From Lolliginicoccus suaedae (GTDB lineage Bacteria > Actinomycetota > Actinomycetes > Mycobacteriales > Mycobacteriaceae), in assembly GCF_008312885.1 (NCBI RefSeq), contig NZ_VSSO01000001.1:558001-622000 (forward strand): 64,000 bases of DNA. The letters are read 5' to 3'. The notes under the pieces are model-generated. The model ran no database searches, was not told the DNA's origin, and saw nothing but the letters and a program-made list of their open reading frames with translations. The translations under genes were made by a program, and so were the position numbers. Below are positions 54,370 through 60,759 of this stretch, piece by piece. The stretch's first letter is position 1; each line of letters opens with the position of its first letter.

Positions 54370-54861
54370 CTACTCGACGATGACGGTGGCCGTCATCCGC
54401 GGATGGTAGAAGCACACGTAGTCATAGGTGCCCGGCTCGGTGAAGGTGCGACTGTAGGACTGGCCCTGCGTGAGGTCGCCGGACTCGGTTCCGTCGGTGA
54501 AGTCGACGGTGTGCAGGGAGTCATCCTTCTGCACCCAGGTGATGGTGGACCCCACGGGCACGGTGAGGGTGCCGGGCTCGAACTCGAAGCCGATGATATC
54601 GACAGTGCGCTGCACAGGGTCGGCCTGCTGCGCTGGCGCTGGCGGCGGGGCCTGGGTGGTCGTCGTCGGCGAGACAGGCTCCGGTGCATCGGGAGAGGGT
54701 GTCGCAGGCGCGGTGGTCTCCCCCTCCGCGCTGGTGGTAGCTGCCACGCTGGACGTGCTCGCGGCCGTCCCGGTGGTGCCGGTGCTGATGGTGTCGTCGG
54801 CGCCGCATCCGGCGAGCAGCATGGTCGCGGCGAATGTTGAAGCGAGGATCGTTCTGCGCAT
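54370..54861 (-). CDS. Cupredoxin-domain lipoprotein
   Basis: The 163-residue protein has a lipoprotein signal with lipobox LAGC (Cys19), a long Thr/Ser/Pro linker (to ~85) and a cupredoxin fold with type 1 copper ligands His117 (DSLHTVDF), Cys150, His153 and Met156 (YVCFYHPRMTA). It should bind one copper and move electrons or deliver metal outside the membrane. It lies 9 nt after the class F sortase gene on the same strand, and the two are probably co-transcribed. Confidence 0.92.
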   Translation of the reverse strand: MRRTILASTFAATMLLAGCGADDTISTGTTGTAASTSSVAATTSAEGETTAPATPSPDAPEPVSPTTTTQAPPPAPAQQADPVQRTVDIIGFEFEPGTLTVPVGSTITWVQKDDSLHTVDFTDGTESGDLTQGQSYSRTFTEPGTYDYVCFYHPRMTATVIVE

Positions 54862-54870
54862 GGCGTTCTC

Positions 54871-55491
54871 CTAGGTGGTCAGTTCTGCGAAGGCGATGAT
54901 GTTGTCGCGGTAGCTGTCCGCGCCCTGGTCGAACTCGCCGCCACAGGTGATCAGCCGCAGCTCCGGCTCGGGCGTGGGCAGCCATACCTCCTCGGTGGGG
55001 AACAGTGCCTTCGCGTGCTGCTCGATCGTGGTGATGGTGAAGACCAGCTGCTCGCCCTCGGTGGTCGTGATGGTGACGGTATCGCCGGGTCGGAGCTCGT
55101 GGAGCCGGTAGAACACGTCGGGGCCGCTGCGGGTGTCGACGTGGCCGAGGATTCCCGCGGGCCCGGGATCGCCGGGGGTCGCGCCCTGGTCATACCAGCT
55201 GATGTCGCCGAACTCCGGCACAGCGAGAGTGTTGTCCTGATTCAAGCCTGTGTAGGCGAGGGGCGCGTCGATGCCCAGCGCGGGGATGCTGATCCGGGCG
55301 GGCGGGGCGGTCTCGCGCTGCTCGCGCACGGACTGGAACGCCCGGACGCTATCGAGGTTCTGCGGCGGGGCTGCCACGACGCTCTGTGAGGCGGCCGAGC
55401 CCTGCGTGGGCGCAGCGTCCTCGGTGGCGGTGGCGCAGCCCGTCGCGAGGACGGCGGAGGTGGCGAGGACGGCAGCGAGTCGTCTGAGCAT
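54871..55491 (-). CDS. Class F sortase
   Basis: The 206-residue sortase has a lipobox-like LATGC (Cys19), so it may be lipid-anchored rather than held by a helix. The catalytic triad is His117 (ILGHVDTRS), Cys183 (LITCGGEF) and Arg195 (DSYRDNI), and its short single-domain form is that of class F. Such enzymes lie in actinomycetes and related bacteria with poorly defined substrates. It is flanked by the cupredoxin gene and the two-repeat secreted protein, whose C-terminal PAGGVETGAG could be its target. Confidence 0.92.
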   Translation of the reverse strand: MLRRLAAVLATSAVLATGCATATEDAAPTQGSAASQSVVAAPPQNLDSVRAFQSVREQRETAPPARISIPALGIDAPLAYTGLNQDNTLAVPEFGDISWYDQGATPGDPGPAGILGHVDTRSGPDVFYRLHELRPGDTVTITTTEGEQLVFTITTIEQHAKALFPTEEVWLPTPEPELRLITCGGEFDQGADSYRDNIIAFAELTT

Positions 55492-55579
55492 GGTGGTCTT
55501 TCCCCCTGGAATGGGTCTGCTGGTGGCACAAGGGATGCTCGTGCCACCAGCAGGGCCTGTCGGGCGAGGTGGAGGGTGG

Positions 55580-56848
55580 TTACTTCACCGCTCCGCCGGC
55601 GCCAGTCTCCACGCCACCGGCGGGCATGGAGTCGCCCATGAAGGCAACGATGCCTCCGGCGAGAGCCTCGGCGGTGCCATACATGTGGTTGTAGGCGTCG
55701 TATGCCTCGCTGAACGCGGTCTCGTAGTCACCGGCGTGGTAGGCGTCTACCTGCGCGACGAGCTGGTTGACGTGCATCTGCAGGCCATCGGCGACGACAT
55801 CGGCGGGGATGTTGCCGTTGGACGCGGTATCGAGGAACTGCGAGAAGTCCTCGCGGTACTGCGACAGTCGTGCGAGCGCATCCTCCTGGGCCTGCTCATC
55901 GCCCTCAGCGACACCGACGGTGTACTGGACGAAGAAGTCGATGTGGTCGGACCACATCTCCATGAACGCCTGGCCACCTTCCTCGCCGAACACGCTGCTG
56001 ATCGATGCGGTCAGGTCCTGGGTGTTCTCGTTGAGAGCACCGGCGAGGGCTTCGAAGTCCTCCCCTCCGGAGACTCCGGCGCGCATGGCCTGGACCGCGA
56101 GCTGGGCATGCTCGCCGAGCTGCTGGCCGAGGCCGGAGCGCAGATCGATGGCCTGGCTCTCCACCGGGCCGGTGATCCCGTCCTGGGTGGTGCTGATCGC
56201 GCCAGCAAGGCCCTGGGCGGTGCCGAACATGTGCGCGTATGCCTCGCGGGCCTGGGCCACTGCGGTGGTGTAGTCACCGTCCGCGTAGGCGCGTACCTGC
56301 TCGACGAGCTGGTTGACGTGCTCCTGCAGGAGGTCAGCGACCGCGTTGGCGGGCAGTTCGCCGTTGGTGGCGCCGTCGAGGAAGCCGCCGAAGTCGGCGC
56401 GGTACTGGTCGAGGCGCTGGATGGCCTCGTCCTGTGCCTGCTGGTCGTCCTCGGCGAGTCCGACGGTGAAGTCAACGAAGAAGCCGATGTGGTTGCTCCA
56501 CAGCTCGTTGAACTGCCCGGCTGCCTCGTCGCCGTAGACCAGACGGATGGACTCGGTGAGGTCCTCGGTGTTCTGGCCGAGCGATGCGGCAGCGGCGTCG
56601 AACTGCGGCTGCCCGGCGACACCGGCGCGCATGGCCTCGATGGCGAGCATGGCGTGCTGGCCGAGCTGCTTCTCGAGGATGATGCGGAGCTCTTCAGCGG
56701 TGACGCTGCTGCCCTGGGTCAGGACGATCTCACCCGGGGTGTAGGTGCGATCGAGGAAGCTGGAAGTGGAGCCGACAGTCACGACGCCGCCCGCAAGAAC
56801 TCCTGCGGTGGCGAGGGCTGCGAGCTGGGTCCTGGTGATCTTGAGCAT
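55580..56848 (-). CDS. Secreted two-repeat helical protein with conserved His, unknown
   Basis: The 422-residue protein has a signal peptide (LAALATAGVLAGGVVTVGS) and two homologous ~158-residue repeats (61-218 and 243-400, offset 182). Each repeat keeps four His: 65/247, 120/302, 177/359, 206/388; the last is followed by Met (HMFGT, HMYGT). Repeats are mostly helical with conserved Trp and Phe (WSNHIGFFV, WSDHIDFFV). The C-terminus reads MPAGGVETGAGGAVK (from Met408), without a membrane helix. A strong GAGGAG ribosome site precedes the ATG. A metal-binding bundle anchored or joined by the neighbouring class F sortase is the best inference. Confidence 0.75.
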   Translation of the reverse strand: MLKITRTQLAALATAGVLAGGVVTVGSTSSFLDRTYTPGEIVLTQGSSVTAEELRIILEKQLGQHAMLAIEAMRAGVAGQPQFDAAAASLGQNTEDLTESIRLVYGDEAAGQFNELWSNHIGFFVDFTVGLAEDDQQAQDEAIQRLDQYRADFGGFLDGATNGELPANAVADLLQEHVNQLVEQVRAYADGDYTTAVAQAREAYAHMFGTAQGLAGAISTTQDGITGPVESQAIDLRSGLGQQLGEHAQLAVQAMRAGVSGGEDFEALAGALNENTQDLTASISSVFGEEGGQAFMEMWSDHIDFFVQYTVGVAEGDEQAQEDALARLSQYREDFSQFLDTASNGNIPADVVADGLQMHVNQLVAQVDAYHAGDYETAFSEAYDAYNHMYGTAEALAGGIVAFMGDSMPAGGVETGAGGAVK

Positions 56849-56951
56849 GACTGCTCCTCAATAGTTGAATGCTTGATCCTTCATCATGCATTCGCCGCGC
56901 AGGGCCCTTCGGATTGGTTCGATCACGACGATTCGGGCTGATTCTTCTTGC

Positions 56952-59175: not shown

Positions 59176-59802
59176 CTAGCTATTGCTCCAATCGAAGTCA
59201 TAGCCGATCCAGTTGGTGTCGGTGAACGCCAGCGACAGTCCGCCCGCCTTCACCTCGAAGTCCCCGACGCCGCAATTGCCCTCGGTCCAGATGAAGCCAT
59301 CGGGCAGCACGATGCGCGCCTCATGCTTCTCATTGGTTACGGGGTTGCGCAGGCTCCGGCCCGTCGCCGTGCCGAGCCCTTCCGCGGTCATCACCTGATC
59401 GATGCCCTCGCCCTCGAAGGAGATCGGCGCCCGCTCGAGGCCCACGACCTCGAAGGTGCTGCCCAGGATCGCCCACGGATCACCGCCGAGCGACCCGGTA
59501 TAGATCTGGTGGAGGCAGCCGACCTGCTCCTCGGTCACCGAAGGGTCAACGATGAACACCGCGCGCCCGCCGCCGTCGTGGATCGCATGGGGCCAATCCA
59601 CCACCGCGATGGCCTTGACCCCCGAGAGATCGACGTCCCCGCAGTGGCCCTCGACGATGTCGTTTCCGACCATCGCCCTGCAGGCACCGTCCGACGAGCT
59701 CGGGAACCCCGAGAAGTTGCAGGTGCAGCCGGGCTGGCAGCTGCAGAACTCATAGCCGGTGCCTCGGATGTGCCACCGTGTTTGTTGCATGGTCGCGGAC
59801 AT
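59176..59802 (-). CDS. DUF1326 protein with N-terminal Cys cluster
   Basis: The 208-residue protein belongs to DUF1326: an N-terminal FCSCQPGCTCNFSGFP cluster (four Cys in nine positions), then CRAMVGNDIVEGHCGDVDLS and GNCGVGDFEVKAGGL near the end. Metal binding is likely because of the clustered Cys, but the role is unknown. AAGGGGACC precedes the ATG at 59802. The DUF2182 membrane gene lies 13 nt upstream on the same strand; the two families commonly pair, so they should act together. Confidence 0.9.
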   Translation of the reverse strand: MSATMQQTRWHIRGTGYEFCSCQPGCTCNFSGFPSSSDGACRAMVGNDIVEGHCGDVDLSGVKAIAVVDWPHAIHDGGGRAVFIVDPSVTEEQVGCLHQIYTGSLGGDPWAILGSTFEVVGLERAPISFEGEGIDQVMTAEGLGTATGRSLRNPVTNEKHEARIVLPDGFIWTEGNCGVGDFEVKAGGLSLAFTDTNWIGYDFDWSNS

Positions 59803-59815
59803 AAGGTCCCCTTTC

Positions 59816-60619
59816 TCACATCAGGATCACCGCGAGGCCGGGCGACACGAGCAGCGCCACCCCCAGCGCGGCGAACGCCACACCCGCGGCCAGGCCCAGT
59901 GCGCGGCCGTGCGGGGCGGTCTTCTCGATCAGGATGATGATCGCCACGACCACCATCCACAGCAGGTTCATGGCGCCGAGCGCGATCATCAGCACCATCA
60001 GCATCCAGCAGCAGCCCAGGCATATTCCGCCGTGCCGCACGCCCGCGACCAACGCGCCCCAGGGACGGTCCAAGCGCTTGCCGTGATGCAGGAAGAAGCC
60101 GAGGGGGCTGCGGCAATGCGCCAGGCAAGCCTGCTTGAGCGGCGTCAATTGGTAGACGGCGGCGAGCAGCGCGACGATCCCGGCGACCCGTGCGGCCGAC
60201 GGGCTCGCTGCCTGGATGGGGCCGTTCCACTGCTGCCAGGCCACGTATCCGGGAAGGCCCACTGCCGACCACACCGCGAGGTAGCCGATGACGAAGAACG
60301 GGACCGGGGCCACGCGGCCCTGGGCGGCGGCCCGCGCATAGATGCGCACCACCGGCGCGGTCGCGGGGAACATCATCGCGGCCATCATCACGACCCACGC
60401 GACGAGGAACCCGACGAACGTCATGGTCATGCTCTGCTCGGCCATGTCCATCCCGCTGCCAGGCATCCCGCTGCCCGGCATCTCGCTGCCGGACATCGAG
60501 GGGCGGGTCGCTAGCCACCCCCAGCAGACGATCGCGATCAGCATCATCACCGCGGGTGGGGCGCTCTCGCGCATCCACTCGCGCGTGCGGTTCCGTGTGC
60601 TTGCCTGCGAAGTGACCAT
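59816..60619 (-). CDS. DUF2182 membrane protein (predicted metal-binding)
   Basis: The 267-residue protein has about seven hydrophobic helices. It shows the DUF2182 landmarks VVMMAAMMFPATAPVVRIYA, YQLTPLKQACLAHCRSPLGF and RHGGICLGCCWMLM; the last is the Cys/His cluster probably binding metal. After the first helix a Met-rich loop SEMPGSGMPGSGMDMAEQ arose from a tandem 15-bp repeat. ATG 60619 is likely but an upstream start at 60667 is possible. It is paired with DUF1326. Copper handling is a plausible role. Confidence 0.88.
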   Translation of the reverse strand: MVTSQASTRNRTREWMRESAPPAVMMLIAIVCWGWLATRPSMSGSEMPGSGMPGSGMDMAEQSMTMTFVGFLVAWVVMMAAMMFPATAPVVRIYARAAAQGRVAPVPFFVIGYLAVWSAVGLPGYVAWQQWNGPIQAASPSAARVAGIVALLAAVYQLTPLKQACLAHCRSPLGFFLHHGKRLDRPWGALVAGVRHGGICLGCCWMLMVLMIALGAMNLLWMVVVAIIILIEKTAPHGRALGLAAGVAFAALGVALLVSPGLAVILM

Positions 60620-60759
60620 ATGTGGCACGTCCCGCAACTGTCGCCGCGCTCGCTTCCGGCTTCTCATTCTTCCACTTGGCGGGGGTGCCGTATAGGGTTC
60701 GCGCAAACCTGTTCGCGCTGTTGCTTCCCGGCCGCGGCATGTCGCCATAGGCTGAAGCC

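Follow-up and report, generated by a model that had tools for sequence, protein, structure and literature searches.

A 2026 study of Actinoplanes (PMC13251363) states that what class F sortases do in physiology is unknown, and reports a strain lacking its four class F sortases to be phenotypically unchanged. In the same study, two class F neighbours with a signal peptide, a helix and a basic end are not counted as substrates for want of a pentapeptide, although the authors note that they may be substrates. A described signal close to the one that concerns us is the 44-residue GVDTG sorting domain NF058571 (NCBIfam). Above its cut-off, this domain occurs at 23 places in 61 genomes, 20 of them no more than about 1.5 kb away from a listed class F sortase, and it is therefore in practice a class F signal. 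Here we describe a locus from Lolliginicoccus suaedae, contained in a 64,000-nucleotide stretch of contig NZ_VSSO01000001.1 (hereafter the window), in which three minus-strand genes encode, in order of transcription, a secreted two-repeat protein (P0001), a class F sortase (P0002) and a cupredoxin lipoprotein (P0003). It seems likely that P0001 is a dedicated substrate of the adjacent sortase and that it is anchored through a sorting signal made up of the motif alone.

The C-terminus of P0001 (55580-56848, minus strand, 422 amino acids), MPAGGVETGAGGAVK, contains the motif PAGGVETGAGG (residues 409-419; 55592-55624, minus strand) followed only by AVK. It has neither a membrane helix nor a basic stretch. 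This tail aligns to positions 1-13 of NF058571, PxGGVxTGxGG included, and differs from the domain in lacking the hydrophobic helix and the basic end. The complete form of the motif can be seen in a DUF4397 protein adjoining a class F sortase, where PAGGVETGFGG is followed by a helix and then by RRRR. A preliminary description of the locus had already reported the three same-strand genes and the tail devoid of helix and basic end, and had proposed that the sortase recognises a non-canonical P-x-G-x3-TG-x-G signal. Recognition of this tail by P0002 is very probable in view of the linkage between tail and sortase described below, but the signal is found elsewhere too: it corresponds to the usual class F signal, here deprived of its helix. 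When the genome of the window was compared with NF058571 up to an expectation (E) value of 10, the P0001 tail was the best of eight matches and the others began at model position 8 or later; the second best (L168), which we take to be a YcnI-like copper protein, has a helix but no P-x-G...TG motif. No second GVDTG-type substrate was found in this genome, in a search that covered GVDTG-type signals and no other kinds of sorting signal.

The sortase P0002 (54871-55491, minus strand, 206 amino acids) is the only one found in the genome (Pfam PF04203, E value of 0.001). Its catalytic triad (His117, Cys183 and Arg195) is complete and it has a lipobox, both as given in the preliminary description; the lipobox ends at Cys19. 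It scores 79.7 bits against the Pfam Sortase model and 170.8 bits against the NCBIfam class F model NF033748, above the cut-off of 166, and has no PDB sequence match at an E value of 0.001. Among the repeat-linked sortases (loci are designated by L numbers), this cut-off is reached by those of the window, L071, L072 and L087, and RefSeq labels both Planococcus plasmid sortases as class F. P0002 thus resembles the members of NF033748 in its score, its triad and its position beside a presumed substrate, as with GVDTG-type neighbours, and differs from them in its lipobox and in the lack of a membrane helix in its partner. The lipobox is present on all ten Actinomycetota repeat-linked sortases and on eight from Bacillales genome contigs, and is absent from the two Planococcus plasmid sortases. 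A connection between the sortase lipobox and helix-less substrates was considered and rejected, since lipobox sortases also adjoin complete signals (for instance L129, L138, L143 and L090).

The association between tail and sortase was studied in loci gathered through short peptide patterns for the close relatives of P0001, through a class-wide genome sample and from plasmids; this collection of loci is not exhaustive. The DNA read spanned mostly about 5 kb around the repeat genes and about 3 kb in the control loci, and some contigs end early. Loci obtained from two sources were counted once (L002/L091, L003/L094, L004/L092, L005/L088/L093, L006/L087 and L007/L089), and the tail tally excludes two Methylocystis plasmid matches as well as L089 and L008, which are truncated where their contigs stop. 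An adjacent sortase accompanies 20 of the 21 tail-bearing repeat proteins and none of the 24 tail-less ones (Fisher p 7e-12, with phylogenetically non-independent rows), and in these 20 loci a class F-type sortase is the next gene. The tail-bearing proteins comprise ten from Actinomycetota (window, L091-L095, L097, L071, L072 and L087) and eleven from Bacillota (L096, L098-L103, L105 and L185-L187; the Fictibacillus pairs L101-L103 are near-identical). The tail-less ones (L073-L086, L177-L184, L104 and L188), several of which, such as L188, have a single repeat, are without a sortase in the DNA read. L104 (Fictibacillus barbaricus) lies inside the Fictibacillus branch and has neither tail nor sortase. 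Conversely, the repeat protein is absent from all 61 other class F loci, the controls, which correspond to the 67 class F places found down to an E value of 5e-25 minus six repeat-linked ones and include some near-copies (L131/L132, L144/L145 and L151/L152). Given these loci and the 24 repeat loci without tail or sortase, the link must be limited to particular sortase branches. The survey of class F neighbourhoods suggested in the preliminary description therefore gives a mixed answer: linkage to the repeat exists in particular clades and is not a property of class F sortases at large.

These branches are recovered in a phylogeny made up of 81 class F-type sortases and no other sortase class, which therefore bears on the groupings among them and not on class membership. 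The ten Actinomycetota repeat-linked sortases form one clade (99/86, recovered in 200/200 bootstrap trees) and the ten Bacillota ones a second clade (98/85). The Actinomycetota clade splits into {L071, L072, L087} and a Hoyosella/Lolliginicoccus/Haloechinothrix group, and the repeat proteins split alike. In the tree of the repeat proteins, the long-branched L086 is uncertainly placed, and the minor branches have weak support and do not agree with those of the sortases. The closest named relatives of P0001 come from Lolliginicoccus lacisalsi (94%) and L. levis (92%), followed by Hoyosella, and among named Actinomycetota genomes the protein is known from Lolliginicoccus, Hoyosella and Haloechinothrix. 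Bacillales homologues with 38-48% identity were found in Salipaludibacillus, Bacillus suaedae, Pseudalkalibacillus, Fictibacillus and Indiicoccus, and others on Planococcus plasmids; the repeat-sortase pair itself is plasmid-borne in L185 and L187 (Planococcus lenghuensis). Overall, the repeat protein is present in 7 of the 61 genomes (that of the window included) and in 15 of the 296 genomes of the class-wide sample, three of them with tail and sortase and 12 without.

The Bacillota pairs (Salipaludibacillus, Fictibacillus, Planococcus and others) are a close counterpart of the window pair. They consist of a homologous two-repeat protein with the sortase directly downstream in 10 of 11 loci, but all eleven tail-bearing proteins carry a complete signal, MPxTGxGG followed by a hydrophobic helix and a basic end. 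The ten Actinomycetota tails, on the contrary, keep the motif and none has a helix. In these ten, the P, the first G, the T, the following G and the final GG are invariant, even in L087, whose overall identity is 32%, while the residues after the motif vary (AVK, AAR, TAG, TTR, TAGH, LVR, EAAIIGGR). The tail is thus kept among sortase-linked homologues, a point that the preliminary description had marked for verification. We propose that P0001 would first be exported and its C-terminal P-x-G-G-V-x-T-G-x-G-G then recognised by the sortase which, by analogy with sortase biology, would cut between Thr415 and Gly416 and attach the protein to the cell wall; P0002 would be expected to cut a peptide ending in PAGGVETGAGGAVK. 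In that case, the Actinomycetota lineage would have pared its sorting signal down to the motif.

With no C-terminal helix, the substrate would have to be retained at the membrane by its N-terminus. Five of the ten Actinomycetota genomes could rely for this on a predicted lipid, as their tail-bearing repeat proteins have a lipobox (L071, L072, L087, L095 and L097; the weak one of L071 was missed by the pattern and counted by eye), and a signal peptide or anchor could serve in the group of the window, whose proteins have neither lipobox nor helix. None of the 11 tail-bearing Bacillota proteins has a lipobox. The first 30 residues of P0001, or about as many, read as a signal peptide or a signal anchor (56759-56848, minus strand, boundary approximate); they have no lipobox Cys, and the protein contains no Cys at all. 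Our guess is that the proteins of this group are held by an uncleaved or slowly cleaved signal peptide. Under the motif-only hypothesis, the membrane would hold one end of the proteins of the lipobox lineages (Haloechinothrix and three other genomes) and the wall would hold the opposite end. This recalls Braun's lipoprotein, which has an N-terminal lipid and a C-terminus joined to peptidoglycan; this protein and its enzyme are unrelated to the repeat protein and the sortase, and P0001 has no lipobox, so the comparison is a working analogy for the lipobox lineages, valid if they are processed as proposed. Literature listings showed no evident helix-less or doubly anchored sortase substrate, and none joined GVDTG or GVETG with sortase.

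Helix-less tails were also sought among the controls. A motif-bearing neighbour was detected by pattern in 40 of the 61 control loci, 33 scored as helix-bearing and seven as helix-less. Two of the latter (L151 and L152) were misplaced pattern matches in proteins that have both motif and helix, and in two others (L153 and L154) the pattern matched inside a hydrophobic segment, an unclear situation; with these entered as helix-bearing, the control tails in the Fisher test were 37 versus 3. The C-termini of the remaining three proteins stop at or soon after the motif: a VWA protein (L109:1742-2917, tail PRGGVATGGGTVVP) and two ice-binding-like proteins (L112:1554-2774, tail PVGSVDAGDGSAR, and L124:1525-2880, with 25 further residues). 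All three begin with ordinary signal peptides, as judged by eye. Helix-less tails are therefore rare, yet not confined to the repeat family. One could imagine that class F sortases act on a whole set of substrates bearing a terminal motif alone, with an N-terminal lipid replacing the helix in the lipobox lineages, as a general second form of the signal; at present we find this extension rather doubtful.

Apart from its tail, P0001 consists of two repeats (residues 49-223, 56180-56704, and residues 231-406, 55631-56158, both minus strand) that are identical at 97 of 166 positions (E value of 9e-68). The four His of the first (His65, His120, His177 and His206) recur in the second (His247, His302, His359 and His388) shifted by exactly 182 residues, in agreement with the two repeats and equally spaced His of the preliminary description. 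When 68 repeat units of 34 proteins are aligned, His occupies the four columns in 67, 64, 67 and 55 units respectively, and gaps account for seven of the 13 misses of the fourth column. Thus, the equal spacing is not due to chance. The first three columns rank within the ten most conserved positions and the fourth is about 25th, so that the His do not vary freely, as the preliminary description had asked to be verified. The exceptions include the tail-less L086 and L187. The AlphaFold2 model of the whole protein is nearly all helical (mean predicted local distance difference test score, pLDDT, of 80.9, below 50 over residues 1-33) and that of a single repeat reaches a pLDDT of 89.5; according to the list of helices, each conserved His of a repeat sits on a separate helix. 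These four-His helical bundles probably bind a metal or a metal cofactor. The family was not recognised in the preliminary description, and indeed neither P0001 nor the relatives scanned match any curated model of Pfam or NCBIfam at its threshold. The nearest signals are a weak PHROG match of P0001 (family 31358, function unknown, E value of 1.2e-4) and near misses to the Pfam family DUF2150 in three of ten relatives (25.5, 26.7 and 20.5 bits for a cut-off of 28). No PDB sequence match was obtained up to an E value of 1, nor any Foldseek match of the models to the PDB at 0.001 or better. VIA-align matched the models to terpene cyclases, designed switches and rhodopsins, which were set aside because helical bundles commonly give such matches. 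RefSeq calls the Planococcus repeat proteins L185 and L186 copper amine oxidases, but no such domain appeared in the eleven members scanned, namely P0001 (Pfam, E values up to 1) and ten relatives (up to 0.01), a set that does not include the Planococcus copies. On the plus strand, a 556-codon open frame (55271-56941) lies antisense to the gene of P0001 and is most likely a by-product of the high G+C content.

The third gene encodes the cupredoxin P0003 (54370-54861, minus strand, 163 amino acids). Its ligands His117, Cys150, His153 and Met156 form the intact type 1 copper site announced by the preliminary description, and it scores 41.2 bits against the plastocyanin/azurin model Copper-bind (Pfam PF00127, cut-off of 21.2). 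Amicyanins have the ligand spacing H...C-x2-H-x2-M, which P0003 shares; nevertheless, its 55-bit match to the amicyanin model TIGR02657 is below the cut-off of 110.2, and it is a lipoprotein with a long linker. The gaps between the three genes of the window are of only 88 bases (repeat protein/sortase) and 9 bases (sortase/cupredoxin), which suggests that they share one transcript.

The alternative that survives best is that the cupredoxin and the repeat protein form a functional pair for copper handling in which the sortase is optional. Of 46 repeat loci, 14 encode a cupredoxin next to the repeat gene, against 3 of 61 controls over a distance of about 3 kb (p 4e-4), a comparison that leans toward the repeat loci because of the unequal flanks, the related rows and a profile built from ten repeat-locus cupredoxins; the count omits the duplicate L088 and L084, a weak match (E value of 9e-8) in which no copper ligands were seen. 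Seven of the 14 have no adjacent sortase (five tail-less loci, the contig-cut L089 and L186), which favors an independent pairing, and genes for CopC and CopD lie near the Pseudalkalibacillus repeat/sortase pair. Yet, 32 of the 46 repeat loci are without a cupredoxin in the DNA read, the His set could fit zinc, iron or heme equally well, and no PDB fold was matched at an E value of 0.001 or better. We regard this scenario as a tentative possibility, and the cupredoxin was rejected as an obligate third part on the basis of the 14 of 46 count. On the Planococcus versutus plasmid pPS15-1, the cupredoxin adjoining the repeat gene (L186:5110-5622) looks circularly permuted: the Cys-x2-His-x2-Met half opens the protein and the half that carries the other His ligand closes it. 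About 2-3 kb from the three-gene module, the window holds a second copper-related pair, a DUF1326 gene adjoining a PpoB2 copper chaperone gene (59176-60748, minus strand).

Other neighbours may bear on regulation. Genes for an extracytoplasmic-function (ECF)-type sigma factor and an RskA-type anti-sigma factor lie upstream of the repeat gene in four of five Bacillales contigs inspected (L096, L098, L100 and L105), two opposite-strand genes intervening in L098; scans identified the four RskA_C matches and, among the sigma genes, that of L096, the rest being named by eye. No sigma/RskA genes were found in L104, the locus without tail and sortase, nor in the annotation of the Planococcus plasmid copies. 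In Haloechinothrix alba (L095:1999-4778), the module adjoins DUF4383, molybdopterin oxidoreductase and fasciclin genes, and in one Hoyosella (L088:9366-12911) RskA-type, molybdopterin and fasciclin genes are near it; the genome of the window has its RskA-type gene and a molybdopterin enzyme on a contig other than that of the module. The mycobacterial SigK regulon includes the fasciclin proteins MPT70/MPT83, and the L095 and L088 surroundings resemble it. In passages of PMC10449499, SigK is linked to no copper effect. With modest confidence, an envelope metal or redox role can be proposed for the module, in which the displayed four-His bundles would work beside the blue-copper lipoprotein.

Several observations weigh against the motif-only anchoring of P0001 by its sortase. 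The window tail reaches 14.7 bits against NF058571 (18.9 in the genome search), below the cut-off of 29, a score that is expected since the helix is absent. The Haloechinothrix alba sortase (161.9 bits) and three Bacillales sortases (137-140) are below the class F cut-off of 166. Over the 13 kb read, no sortase accompanies the tail-bearing L186 (Planococcus versutus plasmid). L187 (Planococcus lenghuensis plasmid) is short of some conserved His, with Gln for His302 in both repeats, yet keeps tail and sortase; the full His set is therefore not needed for the pairing. P0001 has no lipobox that would account for its retention at the membrane. The cupredoxin is missing, in the DNA read, from 3 of 10 Actinomycetota pairs and 10 of 11 tail-bearing Bacillota loci; the copper part of the surface assembly proposed in the preliminary description is thus no more than suggestive. 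Finally, the absent helix could also mean that anchoring was lost.

The tail would then be a relic: the Actinomycetota branch would have lost both helix and wall anchoring, the protein would now be a lipoprotein or be secreted, and the sortase would be kept for other substrates or by linkage. The helix, absent from ten of ten Actinomycetota versions and present in eleven of eleven tail-bearing Bacillota versions, is compatible with such a loss, as is the lipobox of five of the ten, one of them weak. Nevertheless, a relic would hardly keep the P, first G, T, G and final GG in ten tails whose last residues vary, the genome yielded no further GVDTG-type substrate for its one sortase (other kinds of signal were not searched for), and 24 of 24 tail-less loci are without a sortase in the DNA read, all of which makes this scenario unlikely. 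Similarly unlikely, in our opinion, is that the sortase acts on the tail, by cleavage or modification, but does not anchor it to the wall, and instead releases the protein by hydrolysis or joins it to another one such as a second copy or a partner: a substrate without helix is not kept in position for transfer to lipid II and some sortases polymerise proteins, but the ordinary wall-sorting signals of the Bacillota relatives point to wall transfer and nothing specific favors polymerisation.

The motif-only anchoring of P0001 by P0002 is accordingly the hypothesis that we retain as likely. The comparison of loci shows the pairing, the homology of the motif, the lack of a helix and the conservation of the His; cleavage, attachment to the wall, binding of metal and regulation are inferred. 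What is new here is probably the pairing of a class F sortase with a substrate of its own whose signal is reduced to the motif, the motif itself being a known class F signal, shortened. Its interest lies in providing such a pair for a sortase class of unknown role: this class F sortase has one clear partner, related pairs exist in two phyla, and the tail of the partner displays the residues that persist once the remainder of the signal has disappeared. With its one sortase and its one apparent class F substrate, this genome offers a clean test case, and the helix-less tail raises the question of whether sortase anchoring needs a C-terminal helix at all.

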